A DNA stretch of 34,420 nucleotides from OCS155 cluster bacterium AG-349-E07 (GTDB lineage: Bacteria > Actinomycetota > Acidimicrobiia > Actinomarinales > Actinomarinaceae), in NCBI GenBank assembly GCA_003281085.1, contig QCCZ01000008.1:1-34420 (forward strand). The letters are read 5' to 3'. The position numbers were made by a program, and so were the translations under genes. Positions within the stretch are counted from its first letter, which is position 1; each line of letters opens with the position of its first letter. Below, in pieces: positions 2,780-28,854 of the stretch. The notes under the pieces were generated by a model. The model had not been told where the DNA came from. It was given only the letters and a program-made list of their open reading frames with translations, and ran no database searches.

Positions 2780-3361
2780 TTGAAAGTAGGGATACTTTCT
2801 TTACAAGGTAGTTTCTTTGATCATCAAAAAAGTTTAGATCTTATTTCTTTAGAGTCATTACTAGTAAAAACACCTGAAGATTTAGATAAAGTAGATGGAA
2901 TTATACTTCCAGGTGGGGAATCTACAGCTATGTCGAAAATATCATCATATAATAATTTGTATAAAAAGTTAGATATAAAAATAAAACAAGGATTGCCAAC
3001 TCTTAGTACTTGCGCAGGAACGATAATTCTTGCAAAATCAGTTATTGACGGAGATACTCATATCCCGAATATTGATATAGAAATTCAAAGAAATGCATAT
3101 GGCAGACAAAATGAATCATTTGAAGCAGATGTAAAATTTTTAAATAATAATGACATATATTGTTTTATACGTGCACCAAAAATTATAAGAACGTTAAATA
3201 ATGATGTTAAAGTTATTGCTACACAGATTGACGATATTGTTGGTGTTTCACAAAACAATATAGTCTCACTTACATACCATCCAGAATTGACAAATGATAA
3301 CTATTATCTTGAATGGTTGCTTGCTTTTATGAAAGAAGGAAAATATGTCGGGTCATTCTAA
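2780..3361 (+). CDS. pdxT: Pyridoxal 5'-phosphate synthase glutaminase subunit PdxT
   Basis: 193 residues. This class I glutamine amidotransferase hydrolyses glutamine and channels ammonia to PdxS in the 24-subunit PLP synthase. The catalytic triad is visible: C78 in S-T-C-A-G-T, and H167 and E169 in Y-H-P-E-L. The substrate loop G-G-E-S-T-A-M is at 45-51. The TTG start directly follows the pdxS stop, with purine-rich AAAAGAGG just upstream as a plausible ribosome site. The 3' end overlaps yebC by 17 bases, unusually deep for this window. The family match and pairing leave little doubt. Confidence 0.96.
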   Translation: MKVGILSLQGSFFDHQKSLDLISLESLLVKTPEDLDKVDGIILPGGESTAMSKISSYNNLYKKLDIKIKQGLPTLSTCAGTIILAKSVIDGDTHIPNIDIEIQRNAYGRQNESFEADVKFLNNNDIYCFIRAPKIIRTLNNDVKVIATQIDDIVGVSQNNIVSLTYHPELTNDNYYLEWLLAFMKEGKYVGSF

Positions 3362-4088
3362 ATGGTCTACCATAAAGCGAAAAAAAGGAGCTAACGATGC
3401 TAAAAGAGGACAATTATTCGCAAAATTAGTTAAAGCTATAGAAATTGCTGCACGTAATGGAGGCACTGACCCAGCAAATAACGCATCGCTCTACCAAGCT
3501 ATACAAAAAGCAAAATCTAATTCAGTACCTAACGAAAATATTGAACGAGCTTTAAAACGTGTTGATGGAAATTTAGAAACTGGAGAAATATTCGAATTAT
3601 CATACGAAGGATACGCACCGCATGGTGTTGCTCTATTAATTAGTTGTCTTACTGATAATAAGAATAGAACTTCATCTGATGTAAAAGCTACTCTTACTAA
3701 ACATGGTGGCTCGATGGGTACACCGGGTAGTGTTAATTACTTATTTGAAAGAAAAGCTGTATTTCAATTTGATAAATATAACGATGAATTAATCGACTTA
3801 GCTTTAAACTCTGATTGTTTAGATATTCTAGAAAGTAATCAATCAGTAACATTTGAATTCCCACCATCTGATTTTAAGAATATGAATGAAAAATTTAATA
3901 ACAATTCGTTTGTTCCATCAAATGCTGAAATTGCTCAGATTCCGAATGTCGGTGTAGTCATTGATATGGAAAAATTCAAGTCAGTATCAAAATTGATTAG
4001 TGCATTAGAAGACCTTGATGATGTCCAAGATGTTTATGCAAATTTTGATATTGAAGAAAAAGAGTTAGAAGCGTTACTTTCTGAATAA
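3345..4088 (+). CDS. yebC: YebC/TACO1-family translation-associated protein
   Basis: 247 residues, usual length. The signature start M-S-G-H-S-K-W-S-T-I-K and K-G-A-N-D-A-K-R-G mark the YebC family. It was long annotated as a transcriptional regulator; recent work on the family supports ribosome-associated relief of stalling at proline-rich stretches. That role is family knowledge, not seen here. In many bacteria yebC is followed by ruvC-ruvA-ruvB; here it is followed by a small unrelated nuclease. The start is fixed by the MSGHSKW block despite the 17-base overlap with pdxT. Confidence 0.96.
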   Translation: MSGHSKWSTIKRKKGANDAKRGQLFAKLVKAIEIAARNGGTDPANNASLYQAIQKAKSNSVPNENIERALKRVDGNLETGEIFELSYEGYAPHGVALLISCLTDNKNRTSSDVKATLTKHGGSMGTPGSVNYLFERKAVFQFDKYNDELIDLALNSDCLDILESNQSVTFEFPPSDFKNMNEKFNNNSFVPSNAEIAQIPNVGVVIDMEKFKSVSKLISALEDLDDVQDVYANFDIEEKELEALLSE

Positions 4089-4094
4089 AAAAAT

Positions 4095-4100
4095 TAAAAT
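4095..4100 (+). promoter_or_regulatory. Candidate -10 (TAAAAT) for a leaderless nuclease mRNA
   Basis: The 18-base gap between yebC and the nuclease gene holds TAAAAT at exactly -12 to -7 relative to the ATG at 4107, matching TANNNT. No Shine-Dalgarno precedes the ATG. The local sequence is A-rich, so chance is a real alternative. Confidence 0.35.
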
Positions 4101-4106
4101 AAATAC

Positions 4107-4463
4107 ATGGTAAATAAGGCAAAAAAACAGGGAACTATGTACGAAACAAACATAGTTAATAGATTGAATAAAGAAATTAATTTTAAAGCTCAAAGGTTTG
4201 CTGAAGGGGGATCAAAAGATCTGGGAGATATACAATTATTTGTTAAAAATGAAGAATATTTTCTTGAAGCAAAATCTAGACAAAATTTAAATATTCATCA
4301 ATCTTTAGAAAAAGCTATTGAAAAATCAGGGAATAAAAATACAGTACTTTTTTGGAAGAAATTAAAAAGAAAACAAGGGAACTCCAGACGCACAAATGAC
4401 GGAATGCCAGAAGTTGTAACTATGTCTTATGATTTGTTTATTAAATTGCTAAATAGTAAATAA
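4107..4463 (+). CDS. Small PDDEXK nuclease, phage-type Holliday junction resolvase-like
   Basis: 118 residues. The layout is that of a minimal PDDEXK (restriction-endonuclease-fold) nuclease: K-K-Q-G-T then E13 on the first helix, D41 in K-D-L-G-D-I, and the E-x-K pair E54 and K56 in F-L-E-A-K-S. The K-x-G-T-x-x-E opening and the G-x-x-D-x-G-D-I block recall the small Holliday-junction-resolvase-like proteins of actinobacteriophages and, more distantly, archaeal Hjc. The C-terminal part is lysine/arginine rich (about 84-96), suiting DNA binding. It lies exactly between yebC and queA, where ruvC-ruvA-ruvB normally sit, suggesting a junction-resolving job. Fold assignment is fairly firm; the substrate is inferred. 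It could also be another small DNA nuclease. Confidence 0.7.
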   Translation: MVNKAKKQGTMYETNIVNRLNKEINFKAQRFAEGGSKDLGDIQLFVKNEEYFLEAKSRQNLNIHQSLEKAIEKSGNKNTVLFWKKLKRKQGNSRRTNDGMPEVVTMSYDLFIKLLNSK

Positions 4464-5452
4464 TGATTAAAAGTAGTTTACTAAACTACGAGTTACCAAA
4501 TTCATCAATAAATCAAGAGCCATATGAAAATCCATTAGATTCAAAACTTTTAATTGCTAAAAATAGAGAAATAATATCATTTAAACAGTTCCCTGAATAC
4601 GTTGAATCTGATTCTCTATTTATATTTAATAAATCTACTGTACGTAAGGTAAGAATTTTGACAGAGAAAAATACTGGAGGATCTTTAGAAATATTTATAA
4701 CTAAAAAATTGAATGATTTTGAAGCAATATGTCTATTAAAATCTTCCGATAAAAAAAGTAAAAATAAAAAATATCAAACAAATTTATTTAATTTTCAAAT
4801 ACAAGAAGTTTTAGATGAAGCATTTAGATGTATTTTTGATACGAAAATTGATGACATTATAAATAAACATGGAATACTTCCGTTGCCACCATACATTAAA
4901 GATAATCCCAATAAAAGAAAATTCTATAACAATCAATTCTCAGATAGCGGGTTTTCGATTGCTGCACCAACAGCTGGTTTACATTTCACTAATGAATTAA
5001 TTGAAAATTTTAAGAACAAAAATATTGAAACTGCATTTATTAATTTAGATGTAAATCTTAATACGTTCAAACCTGTTAAATCAAAAAATTTAATTGATCA
5101 TAATATTCATAAGGAGTTTTATTCAATAGATAAAACTGAATATAACAAAATAATTACTTATAAAGAATCCAATAAAAATATTTATTGCGTAGGAACTACA
5201 ACTCTTAGAGCAATTGAAACAGCATACAATACAGAAAATCTTGTTGGTTATACAGATCTTTTTATTTTGCCTGATACAAAAATTAATTTACCTACACACT
5301 TAATTACGAATTTTCACGCTCCAATGAGTTCACTTCTTTCAATTGTTCAAAATGTTTATGGAGATAACTGGAAAGAATTGTATAAATATGCAATTGATCA
5401 AGGTTTAAAATTTTTAAGCTTCGGTGATGCTGTATTATTTAAATATAAATGA
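4463..5452 (+). CDS. queA: S-adenosylmethionine:tRNA ribosyltransferase-isomerase QueA
   Basis: 329 residues, slightly short of the usual 340-350. QueA transfers and rearranges the ribose of S-adenosylmethionine onto preQ1 in the tRNA anticodon, forming epoxyqueuosine. Family blocks visible are P-L-P-P-Y-I-K (about 141-147), A-A-P-T-A-G-L-H-F-T (about 168-177) and the closing T-N-F-H-A-P-M-S-S-L-L block (about 283-293; usually TNFHxPxSTLL). The start overlaps the upstream stop by one base (TAATG) and tgt follows with an ATGA overlap, so the two are almost certainly co-translated. The region is more divergent than average, but block order and the partner gene fix the call. Confidence 0.93.
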   Translation: MIKSSLLNYELPNSSINQEPYENPLDSKLLIAKNREIISFKQFPEYVESDSLFIFNKSTVRKVRILTEKNTGGSLEIFITKKLNDFEAICLLKSSDKKSKNKKYQTNLFNFQIQEVLDEAFRCIFDTKIDDIINKHGILPLPPYIKDNPNKRKFYNNQFSDSGFSIAAPTAGLHFTNELIENFKNKNIETAFINLDVNLNTFKPVKSKNLIDHNIHKEFYSIDKTEYNKIITYKESNKNIYCVGTTTLRAIETAYNTENLVGYTDLFILPDTKINLPTHLITNFHAPMSSLLSIVQNVYGDNWKELYKYAIDQGLKFLSFGDAVLFKYK

Positions 5453-17306: not shown

Positions 17307-17687
17307 GTGAATAATTTATTATCAATAGATTTTGGCGAACGTTATATGGGATTTGCAATAAGAACAGTTAAAACACAGATACCTATACCAATAGAAGTCG
17401 TAGACATTAAAAAGGATAATATTGCAAACAAAATATCTACATACGTCGATTCCTATGATATTAATAAATTTATTATTGGCTATCCATTAGGTATGAATCT
17501 TTCTGAAAATAGAATGACTAATAATGTTGATAATTTTATTGAAGAAGAATTAAAAAAATATAATTTGCCAATTTCAAAAGTAGATGAAAGATTCACTTCT
17601 GAATTAATCAAAAATAGTAAAAAAGACAGAGTTGATGATTTGTCAGCATTAGAGATATTAGAAACTTATATTAAAAATAATGATTAA
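17307..17687 (+). CDS. ruvX: YqgF/RuvX-family RNase H-like protein
   Basis: 126 residues. It has an RNase H-like fold with D8 in S-I-D-F-G-E-R-Y-M-G, I-G-Y-P-L-G-M, the catalytic-type D-E-R-F-T-S and a final acidic D-D-L-S-A. The family acts in 16S rRNA 5'-end processing, and a Holliday-junction nuclease role has also been suggested for some members. Because ruvC is missing from its usual place here, that second role deserves thought, but the sequence does not show it. The GTG start lies one base after the alaS stop. It overlaps mltG by eight bases. Confidence 0.9.
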   Translation: MNNLLSIDFGERYMGFAIRTVKTQIPIPIEVVDIKKDNIANKISTYVDSYDINKFIIGYPLGMNLSENRMTNNVDNFIEEELKKYNLPISKVDERFTSELIKNSKKDRVDDLSALEILETYIKNND

Positions 17688-19307: not shown

Positions 19308-19669
19308 AACACGATTTTAGACATTATTCATTCACTTCGCTTTTTTCGTCAGATAGCTATACAGACAACATACTTCTTGTTGAAAATGATTTATCAGAAA
19401 ATCAGCTACTTAGAGCACAGCAATTAATTACTTACTTTAATGAGAATGCTCAGCAAATTATGTTAAAGATAGATGAATTATCTCAAAATTGGTCATTTGA
19501 AAGAATTGCAAAACCTGAAAGAACAGCATTAATGCTTGGAATAGCTGAGTTGAAAATGAAATTAACTCCTAGAAAAGTAGTAATATCCGAATGGGTTAAA
19601 TTAGTCGATAAGAACTCCTCATCGGATGGTGCAAAATTTGTTAATGCAATCTTGGATAACTATGAATGA
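19304..19669 (+). CDS. nusB: Transcription antitermination factor NusB
   Basis: 121 residues. It is an all-helical RNA-binding partner of NusE (ribosomal protein S10) in rRNA antitermination. The C-terminal half carries the family pattern: P-E-R-T-A-L-M-L-G-I-A-E-L, P-R-K-V-V-I-S-E-W-V and K-F-V-N-A-I-L-D. The N-terminal half is divergent. Position directly after efp (ATGA overlap) is the actinobacterial order. Confidence 0.9.
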   Translation: MKHDFRHYSFTSLFSSDSYTDNILLVENDLSENQLLRAQQLITYFNENAQQIMLKIDELSQNWSFERIAKPERTALMLGIAELKMKLTPRKVVISEWVKLVDKNSSSDGAKFVNAILDNYE

Positions 19670-19952
19670 TAATCATCTTTCTAATATTTTAGATATTAAA
19701 AATTATAGAAAATCATTTATAGAGTCTTTTGATACAAATGACATAGAAATTAAAAATAAACTTATAAATGCAGCTAATGATATTAATTTACAATCTATAA
19801 GAATCCATAAATTAATAACTCACAATGGCAACATTGGAAAAGTTTTATTTGCTAGATTTCTTTCGACAATAAATTTAGATGAACAAACACGTATCATGGA
19901 ATTGAATATTTCAAATATTGAAGATATAGTAAATTTTATAGAGAATATATGA
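19662..19952 (+). CDS. Putative actinobacterial integration host factor (mIHF), highly divergent
   Basis: 96 residues from the ATG at 19662, which overlaps nusB by eight bases. An in-frame ATG at 19626 would give a 44-base overlap and is less likely. By sequence alone it is almost unrecognisable. Position is telling: the gene immediately before gmk-rpoZ-coaBC in actinobacteria is mIHF, an essential nucleoid protein of about 105 residues. The second half aligns with the mIHF core: N-I-G-K at 57-60 matches the G-V-G-K hairpin, followed by a helix (A-R-F-L-S-T-I-N-L) and then T-R-I-M-E-L-N-I-S where mIHF has R-R-V-R-G-L-G. The glycines and arginines expected for DNA contact are reduced. Confidence 0.62.
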   Translation: MNDNHLSNILDIKNYRKSFIESFDTNDIEIKNKLINAANDINLQSIRIHKLITHNGNIGKVLFARFLSTINLDEQTRIMELNISNIEDIVNFIENI

Positions 19953-21814: not shown

Positions 21815-23158
21815 ATGTTTGCTGATGTAGAAGTAATTTCAAATAATACATACGGTTACAATCAATTTACTTATTCTATTCCTCATAAGTTTAAGACAAA
21901 ATTAAGTATTGGTTCTTTCGTGAAAGTTGAATTTAGAAATAAGATTGTTGACGCATTAGTTGTAAATTTAAAATCAAAAACTGAAATAATAAATCCAAAA
22001 GATATTTTAAAAGTATCAAATTTTACTCTTGATAATGAACAAGATCTGTATTGCAAATATATAGCACTTTCTAACAGACTAAATTGTGGAATATTATTAC
22101 ACAATATAATTGATTTAGATAATTTAAGAAAACAAAATATTTTAAAAACAAAATCTGTTTCAAATATAAATTTTCAAGAGTTTAATAATTTTAAGTTTGT
22201 AAATGATAATGTTTTTTTTGTGTCTTCAATTAAACAAGCGAATGAATTATCAAAAAATTTGAAAAATAAACTAAAGATCGACTTTTATCAAAAATTTGGA
22301 GGGAAAGATGAACTTATCAATGTATTAAACAACAAAAAATACAGAAATATAATAATTCTTTCTAATAATTTTGAAAAAGTAATATTAAACGATCATACTA
22401 ATTATTTTTTTTATGACAGTAATTCTCCCGCTTATAAGTTACCAAAATTAAATAATCTGAACATTGTTGAGTCATCTTATCTGAAAAATCATATATTTGG
22501 AGGTAAGTTTATTTATATAAATGAATTTCCCAATTTGGAATTCAATGATTTTTATAAATTTAATATTGAAGAGATAAATTATGGAATTGAATATTATTTT
22601 TCAAATAATTTAAAAGATAATTTAGAGTTACTTAATCATAAATATCCAAATAAAGTTTTCAAAGTCTACTCAAAAGAAACATTTGCAGAAAATAAAAATA
22701 TTTCACAACATGATGATATAAATAATAAAGAAGTAAATACAGTTATTATAAGTAATCCAACTATATCTTCGAAAGGTCTTCTTAATTCATACAAATTAAT
22801 ATCACTTCTAAGAACATTAAACTTTTGTATTAAAAACAATTTAAAAATCATAATTTTCAATAATAAAAAATTGAATATAGAAAGTTCATTAAATAGCTCC
22901 TCTTTAACTAAGTGGGCAAATAAGGAGTTAGAAACTAGATTAAAATATGGACCAAACAAGTTGTTAAAAGTTTTTCAATTTGAATTACAACAAAAACTTG
23001 AAGATAGTAATGAATTGGTTCTTGGTCCTATAAAAACTGAAAGCGGTTTCAAGTATGAAGTTCAAATAAAATTATCAAAAGATGTAAATTACATAAAATT
23101 TATAAATCTATTTAAAAGTCTTAATAAAATTGATTTAACAAGAGTAAGGTATATTTAA
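21815..23158 (+). CDS. priA: PriA-like primosomal protein N', helicase-dead and shortened
   Basis: 447 residues against about 650 in mycobacteria and 730 in E. coli. The N-terminal roughly 65 residues fit the PriA 3'-DNA-binding domain (F-x-Y-S-I-P ... I-G-S-F-V-K-V-E-F-R-N-K). No Walker A G-x-G-K-T/S, no DEAH box and only three cysteines in total are present, so the ATPase and the zinc-binding region are gone. Actinobacterial PriA is already known to lack helicase motifs; this copy is further reduced. It sits between coaBC and def-fmt, the conserved actinobacterial site. The middle is very Asn/Lys rich. It is an intact ORF, so it is probably expressed, perhaps as a DNA-binding scaffold. Confidence 0.72.
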   Translation: MFADVEVISNNTYGYNQFTYSIPHKFKTKLSIGSFVKVEFRNKIVDALVVNLKSKTEIINPKDILKVSNFTLDNEQDLYCKYIALSNRLNCGILLHNIIDLDNLRKQNILKTKSVSNINFQEFNNFKFVNDNVFFVSSIKQANELSKNLKNKLKIDFYQKFGGKDELINVLNNKKYRNIIILSNNFEKVILNDHTNYFFYDSNSPAYKLPKLNNLNIVESSYLKNHIFGGKFIYINEFPNLEFNDFYKFNIEEINYGIEYYFSNNLKDNLELLNHKYPNKVFKVYSKETFAENKNISQHDDINNKEVNTVIISNPTISSKGLLNSYKLISLLRTLNFCIKNNLKIIIFNNKKLNIESSLNSSSLTKWANKELETRLKYGPNKLLKVFQFELQQKLEDSNELVLGPIKTESGFKYEVQIKLSKDVNYIKFINLFKSLNKIDLTRVRYI

Positions 23159-28332: not shown

Positions 28333-28338
28333 ATTAAT

Positions 28339-28854
28339 ATACCAGAACTTAAGATTAATGAAGATATAAAATCTAAGGAGCTTAGAGTAATAGCACCAGA
28401 TGGTGTACAGGTTGGAGTTCTAGAATTAAAAAAAGCTTTAATTATAGCAAATGAATTAGAACTTGATTTAGTAGAAGTATCTCCTGAAAGCAAACCGCCT
28501 GTTGCAAGATTGATGGATTATGGAAAATATAAATACGAACTAGCTCAAAAAGCTAAAGAATCCAGAAAAAATCAGGTAAAAATATCTGTAAAGGAAATAC
28601 AGTTAAAACCCAAAATAGATACAAATGATTTCAAAATTAAGTTGCAAAAATCAAGGAAGTTTTTAGAAACTGGTGACAAGGTTAAATTTACAATGAGATT
28701 TAGAGGTAGAGAAGCAGAACATCCAGAATTTGGACAAAAAGTATTAGATAATTACAAAGAGGAGTTATCTGACATTGCAGAATTAGAATCTACATCAAAT
28801 CCTGACGGTAGATCAATAACTATGGTTTTAGCACCAATTGGAGGTAGAAAATGA
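28339..28854 (+). CDS. infC: Translation initiation factor IF-3, rare (ATA) start
   Basis: 171 residues if started at ATA 28339. IF-3 keeps the 30S subunit free and rejects wrong start codons. The N domain is clear: P-E-L-K-I-N-E-D-I, L-R-V-I-A-P-D-G-V-Q-V-G-V, L-D-L-V-E-V-S-P and P-P-V-A-R-L-M-D-Y-G-K. The C domain has K-E-I-Q-L-K-P and F-R-G-R-E. In frame, TGA 28324 bounds the gene and no ATG, GTG or TTG follows until TTG 28510, which would delete the N domain. The start must therefore be ATA 28339 or ATT 28333/28354. infC is the classic gene with a rare start (ATT in E. coli), allowing IF-3 to repress itself. Confidence 0.95.
   Translation: MPELKINEDIKSKELRVIAPDGVQVGVLELKKALIIANELELDLVEVSPESKPPVARLMDYGKYKYELAQKAKESRKNQVKISVKEIQLKPKIDTNDFKIKLQKSRKFLETGDKVKFTMRFRGREAEHPEFGQKVLDNYKEELSDIAELESTSNPDGRSITMVLAPIGGRK

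Follow-up and report, generated by a model that had tools for sequence, protein, structure and literature searches.

The window analysed here is the whole 34,420-nt stretch (positions 1–34,420, forward strand) of contig QCCZ01000008.1 from assembly GCA_003281085.1 of OCS155 cluster bacterium AG-349-E07. The host, whose genome measures 0.95 Mb and is 85% complete, is a Candidatus Actinomarina of the order Ca. Actinomarinales, and the named relatives of the contig are Candidatus Actinomarina or OCS155 contigs, many of them from single cells. Between yebC and queA, both confirmed by Pfam as the genes they had been taken for, lies a single gene for a protein of 118 residues (Table 1). It starts 18 nt behind the stop of yebC, and its own stop overlaps the ATG of queA by one base. 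The original prediction had assigned positions 4089–4463 to this feature. The coding part of that span, 4107–4463, stands, whereas positions 4089–4106 are an intergenic stretch that holds the promoter candidate.

Table 1. Features of the resolvase-like locus and a second nuclease candidate in the window, with the evidence for each.
Feature	Position	Strand	Basis
Hjc-type PD-(D/E)XK protein, predicted Holliday-junction resolvase (118 aa)	4107..4463	+	ORF, PHROG_244, A4 profile, AF2
yebC (TACO1/YebC), upstream neighbour	3345..4088	+	Pfam PF01709 E 6.6e-46, PF20772 E 2.2e-29
queA, downstream neighbour	4463..5452	+	Pfam PF02547 E 2e-77
TAAAAT, candidate -10 element, 6-nt spacer to ATG	4095..4100	+	TANNNT-N6-start in 20/20
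E13 codon, motif I glutamate, helix 1	4143..4145	+	invariant in Actinomarinales and phage relatives
D41 codon, motif II aspartate, start of strand 2	4227..4229	+	invariant in Actinomarinales and phage relatives
E54-A55-K56 codons, motif III, strand 3	4266..4274	+	invariant in Actinomarinales
RuvX/YqgF (126 aa), second nuclease candidate	17307..17687	+	PF03652 E 9.6e-24 (genome search), 1.2e-23 (window Pfam)

In six outgroup genomes the corresponding neighbourhood reads pdxS-pdxT-yebC-ruvC-(ruvA)-ruvB and continues with queA and tgt and/or yajC-secDF-relA. Here, (ruvA) denotes a space for ruvA between ruvC and ruvB, and pdxST lies beyond the end of one short contig. As these outgroup Acidimicrobiia carry ruvC-ruvA-ruvB between yebC and queA, the 118-residue gene fills the ruvCAB slot. 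Profile searches were run on 42 Actinomarinales genomes, eight of which are at least 90% complete. RuvC (PF02075) was matched in none of the 42; it is present in 198 of 205 other Acidimicrobiia genomes, and the seven outgroup genomes without it are mostly fragmented assemblies that also give no strong RuvB match. RuvA_N (PF01330) and RuvB_C (PF05491) were each matched in 0/42 genomes of the order and in 10 control genomes. The RuvB_N profile produced only weak AAA+ cross-matches in Actinomarinales, with a best E of ~1e-10, whereas nearly every other Acidimicrobiia genome scored between 1e-26 and 1e-80. Since the profiles fail genome-wide, and since 42 misses of a universal gene would be very unlikely, the ruv genes are missing rather than moved. 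Thus, no intact RuvA, RuvB or RuvC was found by profile in the host genome or in the order, and the proposal that one 118-residue protein occupies the ruvC-ruvA-ruvB site has been borne out.

The closest family match of the protein is PHROG_244, a profile of phage Holliday-junction resolvases, which covers residues 1–117 with an E of 2.9e-11. The profile also matches the archaeal controls from Haloferax and Sulfolobus, as a profile of Hjc proteins should, and the 118-residue protein has no match to any RusA family of Pfam at E up to 10, its predicted fold being PD-(D/E)XK; the label 'RusA-like' is therefore misleading. The PHROG_244 members that we examined are PD-(D/E)XK, Hjc-like proteins, against the printed label. 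The Pfam family of archaeal Hjc gives no match even at E 10, and neither does NCBIfam match the protein. PF24608 (PDDEXK_15, 'phage putative PDDEXK endonuclease') matches all 24 order members with a best E of 3.3e-5, the window member scoring below the curated cut-off and the Pfam family thresholds remaining unpassed. When the order was compared with 13 phage members profile to profile, the match scored 97% with an E-value of 7e-11. A mixed profile of order and phage sequences (A4) matched S. solfataricus Hjc over 112 positions (E 9.4e-7), the PDB entries 4tkd/1hh1/4tkk (E 9e-7 to 3e-6) and the Thermus phage enzyme Hjc_15-6 (7bgs; E 4.6e-4), and all its PDB matches with E <0.02 are Holliday-junction resolvases. 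A phage-only profile (A5) reached Hjc with E 4.7e-4. As the phage members alone raise the A4 score, the order-only profile (A1) is the stricter test; in the PDB, its top match is Hjc, with E 0.04. The phage relatives are annotated as Holliday-junction resolvases, and their genes adjoin DnaB/primase genes. In line with the original prediction, the nearest relatives detected are thus Hjc and phage Holliday-junction resolvases.

The catalytic layout that had been read from the sequence, E13, D41 and E54-x-K56, is present at these positions, and the four residues are invariant in 24 members of the order. Across the order and the phage relatives, G9, E13, R30, D41 and K56 do not vary, and position 54 is Glu or Gln in the phages. 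The motif spacing (G9-x3-E13, D41, E54-A-K56) is conserved and aligns with the residues of S. solfataricus Hjc, and E10, D40, E53 and K55 of Hjc_15-6 are spaced almost identically (PMC8805305). The first structure prediction reached a pLDDT of 60 with insignificant fold matches. With diverse phage relatives added, the AlphaFold2 model attained a pLDDT of 85.1 and a pTM of 0.78. Its core runs helix-strand-strand-strand-helix-strand (H4–20, E26–30, E42–46, E49–57, H63–74, E79–84), D41 directly preceding strand 2 and strand 3 carrying E54 and K56. The top PDB fold matches are Hjc chains (probability 0.9–1.0, TM ~0.45), with a best E of 2.7e-3 that does not reach 0.001. Among viral folds, annotated Holliday-junction resolvases match with TM 0.64–0.67 and an unnamed phage protein with TM 0.72 and E 1.3e-5. 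The model agrees with the PD-(D/E)XK assignment, Hjc being the nearest fold, and by profile and predicted fold the 118-residue protein is a member of the Hjc-type PD-(D/E)XK family.

The replacement gene was detected by profile search in 37 of the 42 Actinomarinales genomes. Since the five remaining genomes are also devoid of yebC, the locus is probably unassembled there, and loss of the gene in these five was judged unlikely; the search for yebC was run without a separate positive control, but yebC was recovered beside the gene in 35/35 other loci. Synteny held in 30/30 loci and then in 35/35 contigs with a name, a large share of which come from single-cell genomes. That a phage contig was fused to a bacterial one, or that the arrangement is a misassembly, has a probability close to nil, and this artefact is ruled out by the same gene order in all 35 independent contigs across the order. 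Compared with the window copies, the resolvase-like protein retains 75–99% identity, QueA about 46–98% and YebC about 50–100%; the resolvase-like protein is better conserved than QueA throughout, and than YebC in the deeper comparisons. Values of dN/dS for the gene lie mostly between 0.02 and 0.16 (0.29 in one short pair), and judged by these comparisons it is under strong purifying selection. The best reading of the sequences is that the replacement is old and would go back to a single in-place event in the ancestor of the order.

Where the gene came from can be approached through its relatives. In a tree of 27 sequences the order forms a single clade whose stem is long (3.45 changes per column). 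When this tree is midpoint-rooted, with archaeal cellular sequences left out, the clade stands beside actinophage-type sequences, a placement that is weakly supported (80/77). When viral contigs were scanned with the Actinomarina sequence, singly or as an alignment, no close phage copy was returned, and the order-only profile found no relative among 396 other Actinomycetota genomes. With the phage profile, eight other matches were obtained among 296 genomes, one of them strong (E 2.4e-19) and situated in a prophage-like locus. From the idea of a phage-derived resolvase, the kinship has been retained, as the nearest relatives are phage Holliday-junction resolvases; on the other hand, the donor phage did not emerge from the viral-contig scans, and the branch is long and old. 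As an alternative, the gene could have been acquired directly from archaea, as a marine archaeal Hjc, with the same function; such a transfer overlaps with our preferred explanation and disputes the donor only. The best solved-structure matches are indeed archaeal Hjc proteins. However, the best family matches are with phage proteins (PHROG_244 and PF24608, the latter up to 3.3e-5) and not with the Pfam model of archaeal Hjc, the C-terminal K-x-D-G...M pattern is common to the phage relatives, and the rooted tree, for all its weak support, points in the same direction. We regard an archaeal donor as unlikely. The phage profiles fit better than the archaeal Hjc model of Pfam, and a phage is the better-supported source.

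A prophage-like locus of another actinobacterium (L099, 5126–9377; G288:C25) has a setting like that of the phage genes, with genes for an exonuclease-like, a possible ssDNA-binding-like, an Hjc-like resolvase and a primase/helicase-like protein in a row. The gene names were read from the sequences, the resolvase alone being assigned by profile.

The resolvase-like gene had also been proposed to possess its own leaderless promoter, and a motif geometry in keeping with this proposal is conserved in the order. In 20/20 distinct upstream sequences a TANNNT hexamer ends exactly 6 nt before an ATG or GTG, an arrangement that occurs in 6.9% of shuffled sequences by chance and at 2.8% of the ATGs in the window. 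No Shine-Dalgarno-like motif was present within 25 nt upstream in these 20 sequences. It is important to note that they are related and therefore not independent; yet hexamer, spacer and start codon vary and the geometry stays constant. A leaderless transcript that would begin at the start codon is thereby supported, though not proven.

Other genes of the window deserve mention in their own right. infC (IF3, 173 aa; window 28333–28854) has an ATT start, and common start codons alone would give a 114-residue fragment. The infC gene of E. coli is also started by ATT, and this unusual start seems to have been kept in the streamlined genome. A PriA-like protein of 447 residues (window 21815–23158) has the Pfam 3' DNA-binding domain (residues 16–69) and no helicase domain, and is possibly a primosome protein that lacks the helicase. 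A protein of 108 residues (window 19626–19952), encoded between a nusB-like and a gmk-like gene, has no Pfam match; judged by its position and wording, it may be a mycobacterial-type integration host factor (mIHF).

The order has kept other components of homologous recombination. RecA and RecG are each retained in 39 of the 42 Actinomarinales genomes, and joint molecules should therefore be made and can be migrated. Since strong signs of an important role of homologous recombination in Actinomarinales have been reported (PMC7771536), some resolvase is to be expected. RusA can efficiently take over from RuvABC in E. coli provided that RecG is present (PMC5055574), and the archaeal-like phage relative Hjc_15-6 cleaves Holliday junctions (PMC8805305). 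We propose, with a probability of roughly 0.78, that in Actinomarinales RuvABC has been replaced by a phage-type Hjc resolvase that is expressed from its own leaderless promoter, with RecG migrating the branches. According to this model, the three genes ruvC-ruvA-ruvB that lay between yebC and queA would have been swapped in the ancestor of the order for a single resolvase gene from the phage branch of the Hjc type, whose product would now be the dedicated resolvase of the order. By analogy with Hjc, we infer that the protein would bind the four-way junction as a homodimer and introduce two symmetric nicks, with an active site that depends on Mg2+ and consists of E13, D41, E54 and K56. RecA would form the joint molecules, and RecG would take the place of RuvAB in branch migration, so that Hjc cuts and RecG moves; the resolvase itself would be translated from a leaderless mRNA. 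The best reading by analogy is that the Hjc-type protein and RecG work functionally like RusA and RecG in E. coli ruv mutants. With RuvABC gone and one small Hjc-type gene in its slot, the recombination toolkit of these tiny ocean bacteria is probably much simpler than that of nearly every other bacterium.

Two other assignments of function have to be weighed against this resolvase model. PD-(D/E)XK folds serve many functions, and the 118-residue protein could be a nuclease with a restriction-like or defence task, or else a general endonuclease that has been domesticated, and stand at this site by chance; RecG, which is kept, would then handle the junctions alone, or junctions would be avoided. 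However, PADLOC gives no match for the protein, there is no adjoining methylase or partner gene, and the close profile and fold matches are all Holliday-junction resolvases. Moreover, defence genes are usually patchy in distribution, whereas this is a single gene in a housekeeping operon that is fixed throughout the order. A defence nuclease is, in our view, highly improbable. The main rival candidate is RuvX/YqgF, a protein of RuvC fold encoded on the same contig, which occurs in 36/42 genomes including all eight that are at least 90% complete. It could resolve the junctions itself, leaving the Hjc-like protein to trim or degrade, for example, branched phage or replication DNA. Rocha et al. 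suggest that YqgF may act as resolvase where RuvC and RecU are missing, but RuvX accompanies RuvC or RecU in most bacteria and is thus not a simple analogue (PMC1193525); its status as a resolvase is disputed. Furthermore, this assignment leaves unexplained why a resolvase-type gene occupies the exact ruvCAB slot under strong constraint. We consider it rather unlikely, and slightly more so than an archaeal donor.

Replacement of a resolvase is already known as such; new is a whole order in which RuvABC has given way, at its own locus, to a phage-type Hjc. We are fairly inclined to believe that the swap would be permanent and would extend to the whole of this abundant order, that the complete post-synaptic machinery would consist of RecG and one leaderless-expressed nuclease, and that this would be the first order-wide case known to us of a viral gene displacing the bacterial resolvase together with its RuvAB motor at one and the same locus. 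The main text of the 2020 paper on Actinomarinales genomes is silent on Ruv and resolvases (PMC7771536), and no earlier report that links Actinomarina to RuvC or to Holliday junctions was found in the open-access literature searched. Few parts of bacterial recombination are as conserved as RuvAB, and a free-living marine order devoid of RuvABC tests the need for the motor: it poses the question whether a stand-alone resolvase plus RecG is sufficient outside suppressor strains. It is also a clear-cut case in which a core function of the host, located within a housekeeping operon, has passed to a phage-type gene, and 118 residues instead of three proteins fit genome streamlining.

Compared with known systems, the Actinomarinales protein shares with archaeal Hjc (S. 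solfataricus, P. furiosus, A. fulgidus) the small PD-(D/E)XK architecture, with G-x3-E in helix 1, D and E-x-K at near-identical spacing. It differs in its C-terminal half (KKLKR...RR-x2-DG-x-PEV-x-MS), in its low identity of about 13–24% in the fold matches, in escaping the Pfam Hjc model, and in the location of its gene in a bacterial chromosomal housekeeping locus. The Hjc-like proteins of phages (PHROG_244; Microbacterium phage Caron gp47, Cutibacterium phage gp32, Thermus phage Hjc_15-6, 7bgs/7bnx) align over most of its length with fold TM up to about 0.7, and the actinophage group shares the C-terminal K...DG...M. Whereas the phage genes reside in replication modules by DnaB/primase, the Actinomarinales gene is vertical, fixed and in the place of RuvABC. 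With the RuvABC resolvasome it has the operon position in common and the presumed role of resolving RecA-made four-way junctions; yet RuvC is an RNase-H-fold nuclease that works with the RuvAB motor, and none of the three was found in Actinomarinales by profile. In Firmicutes and Mollicutes, RuvC has likewise been replaced by a non-orthologous resolvase of PD-(D/E)XK type, RecU, but RuvAB is kept there, whereas Actinomarinales also do without this branch-migration motor. RuvAB-less genomes with RecG have been described for Aquifex and Wigglesworthia, and in a survey of 117 genomes RuvAB was missing from only two that bear RecA, both with RecG (PMC1193525). RusA, a small resolvase from a cryptic prophage, can substitute for RuvABC in E. 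coli as long as RecG is available (PMC5055574). RusA, however, has another fold, and rusA is normally silent and acts as a suppressor only, whereas the switch in Actinomarinales appears to be permanent and order-wide.
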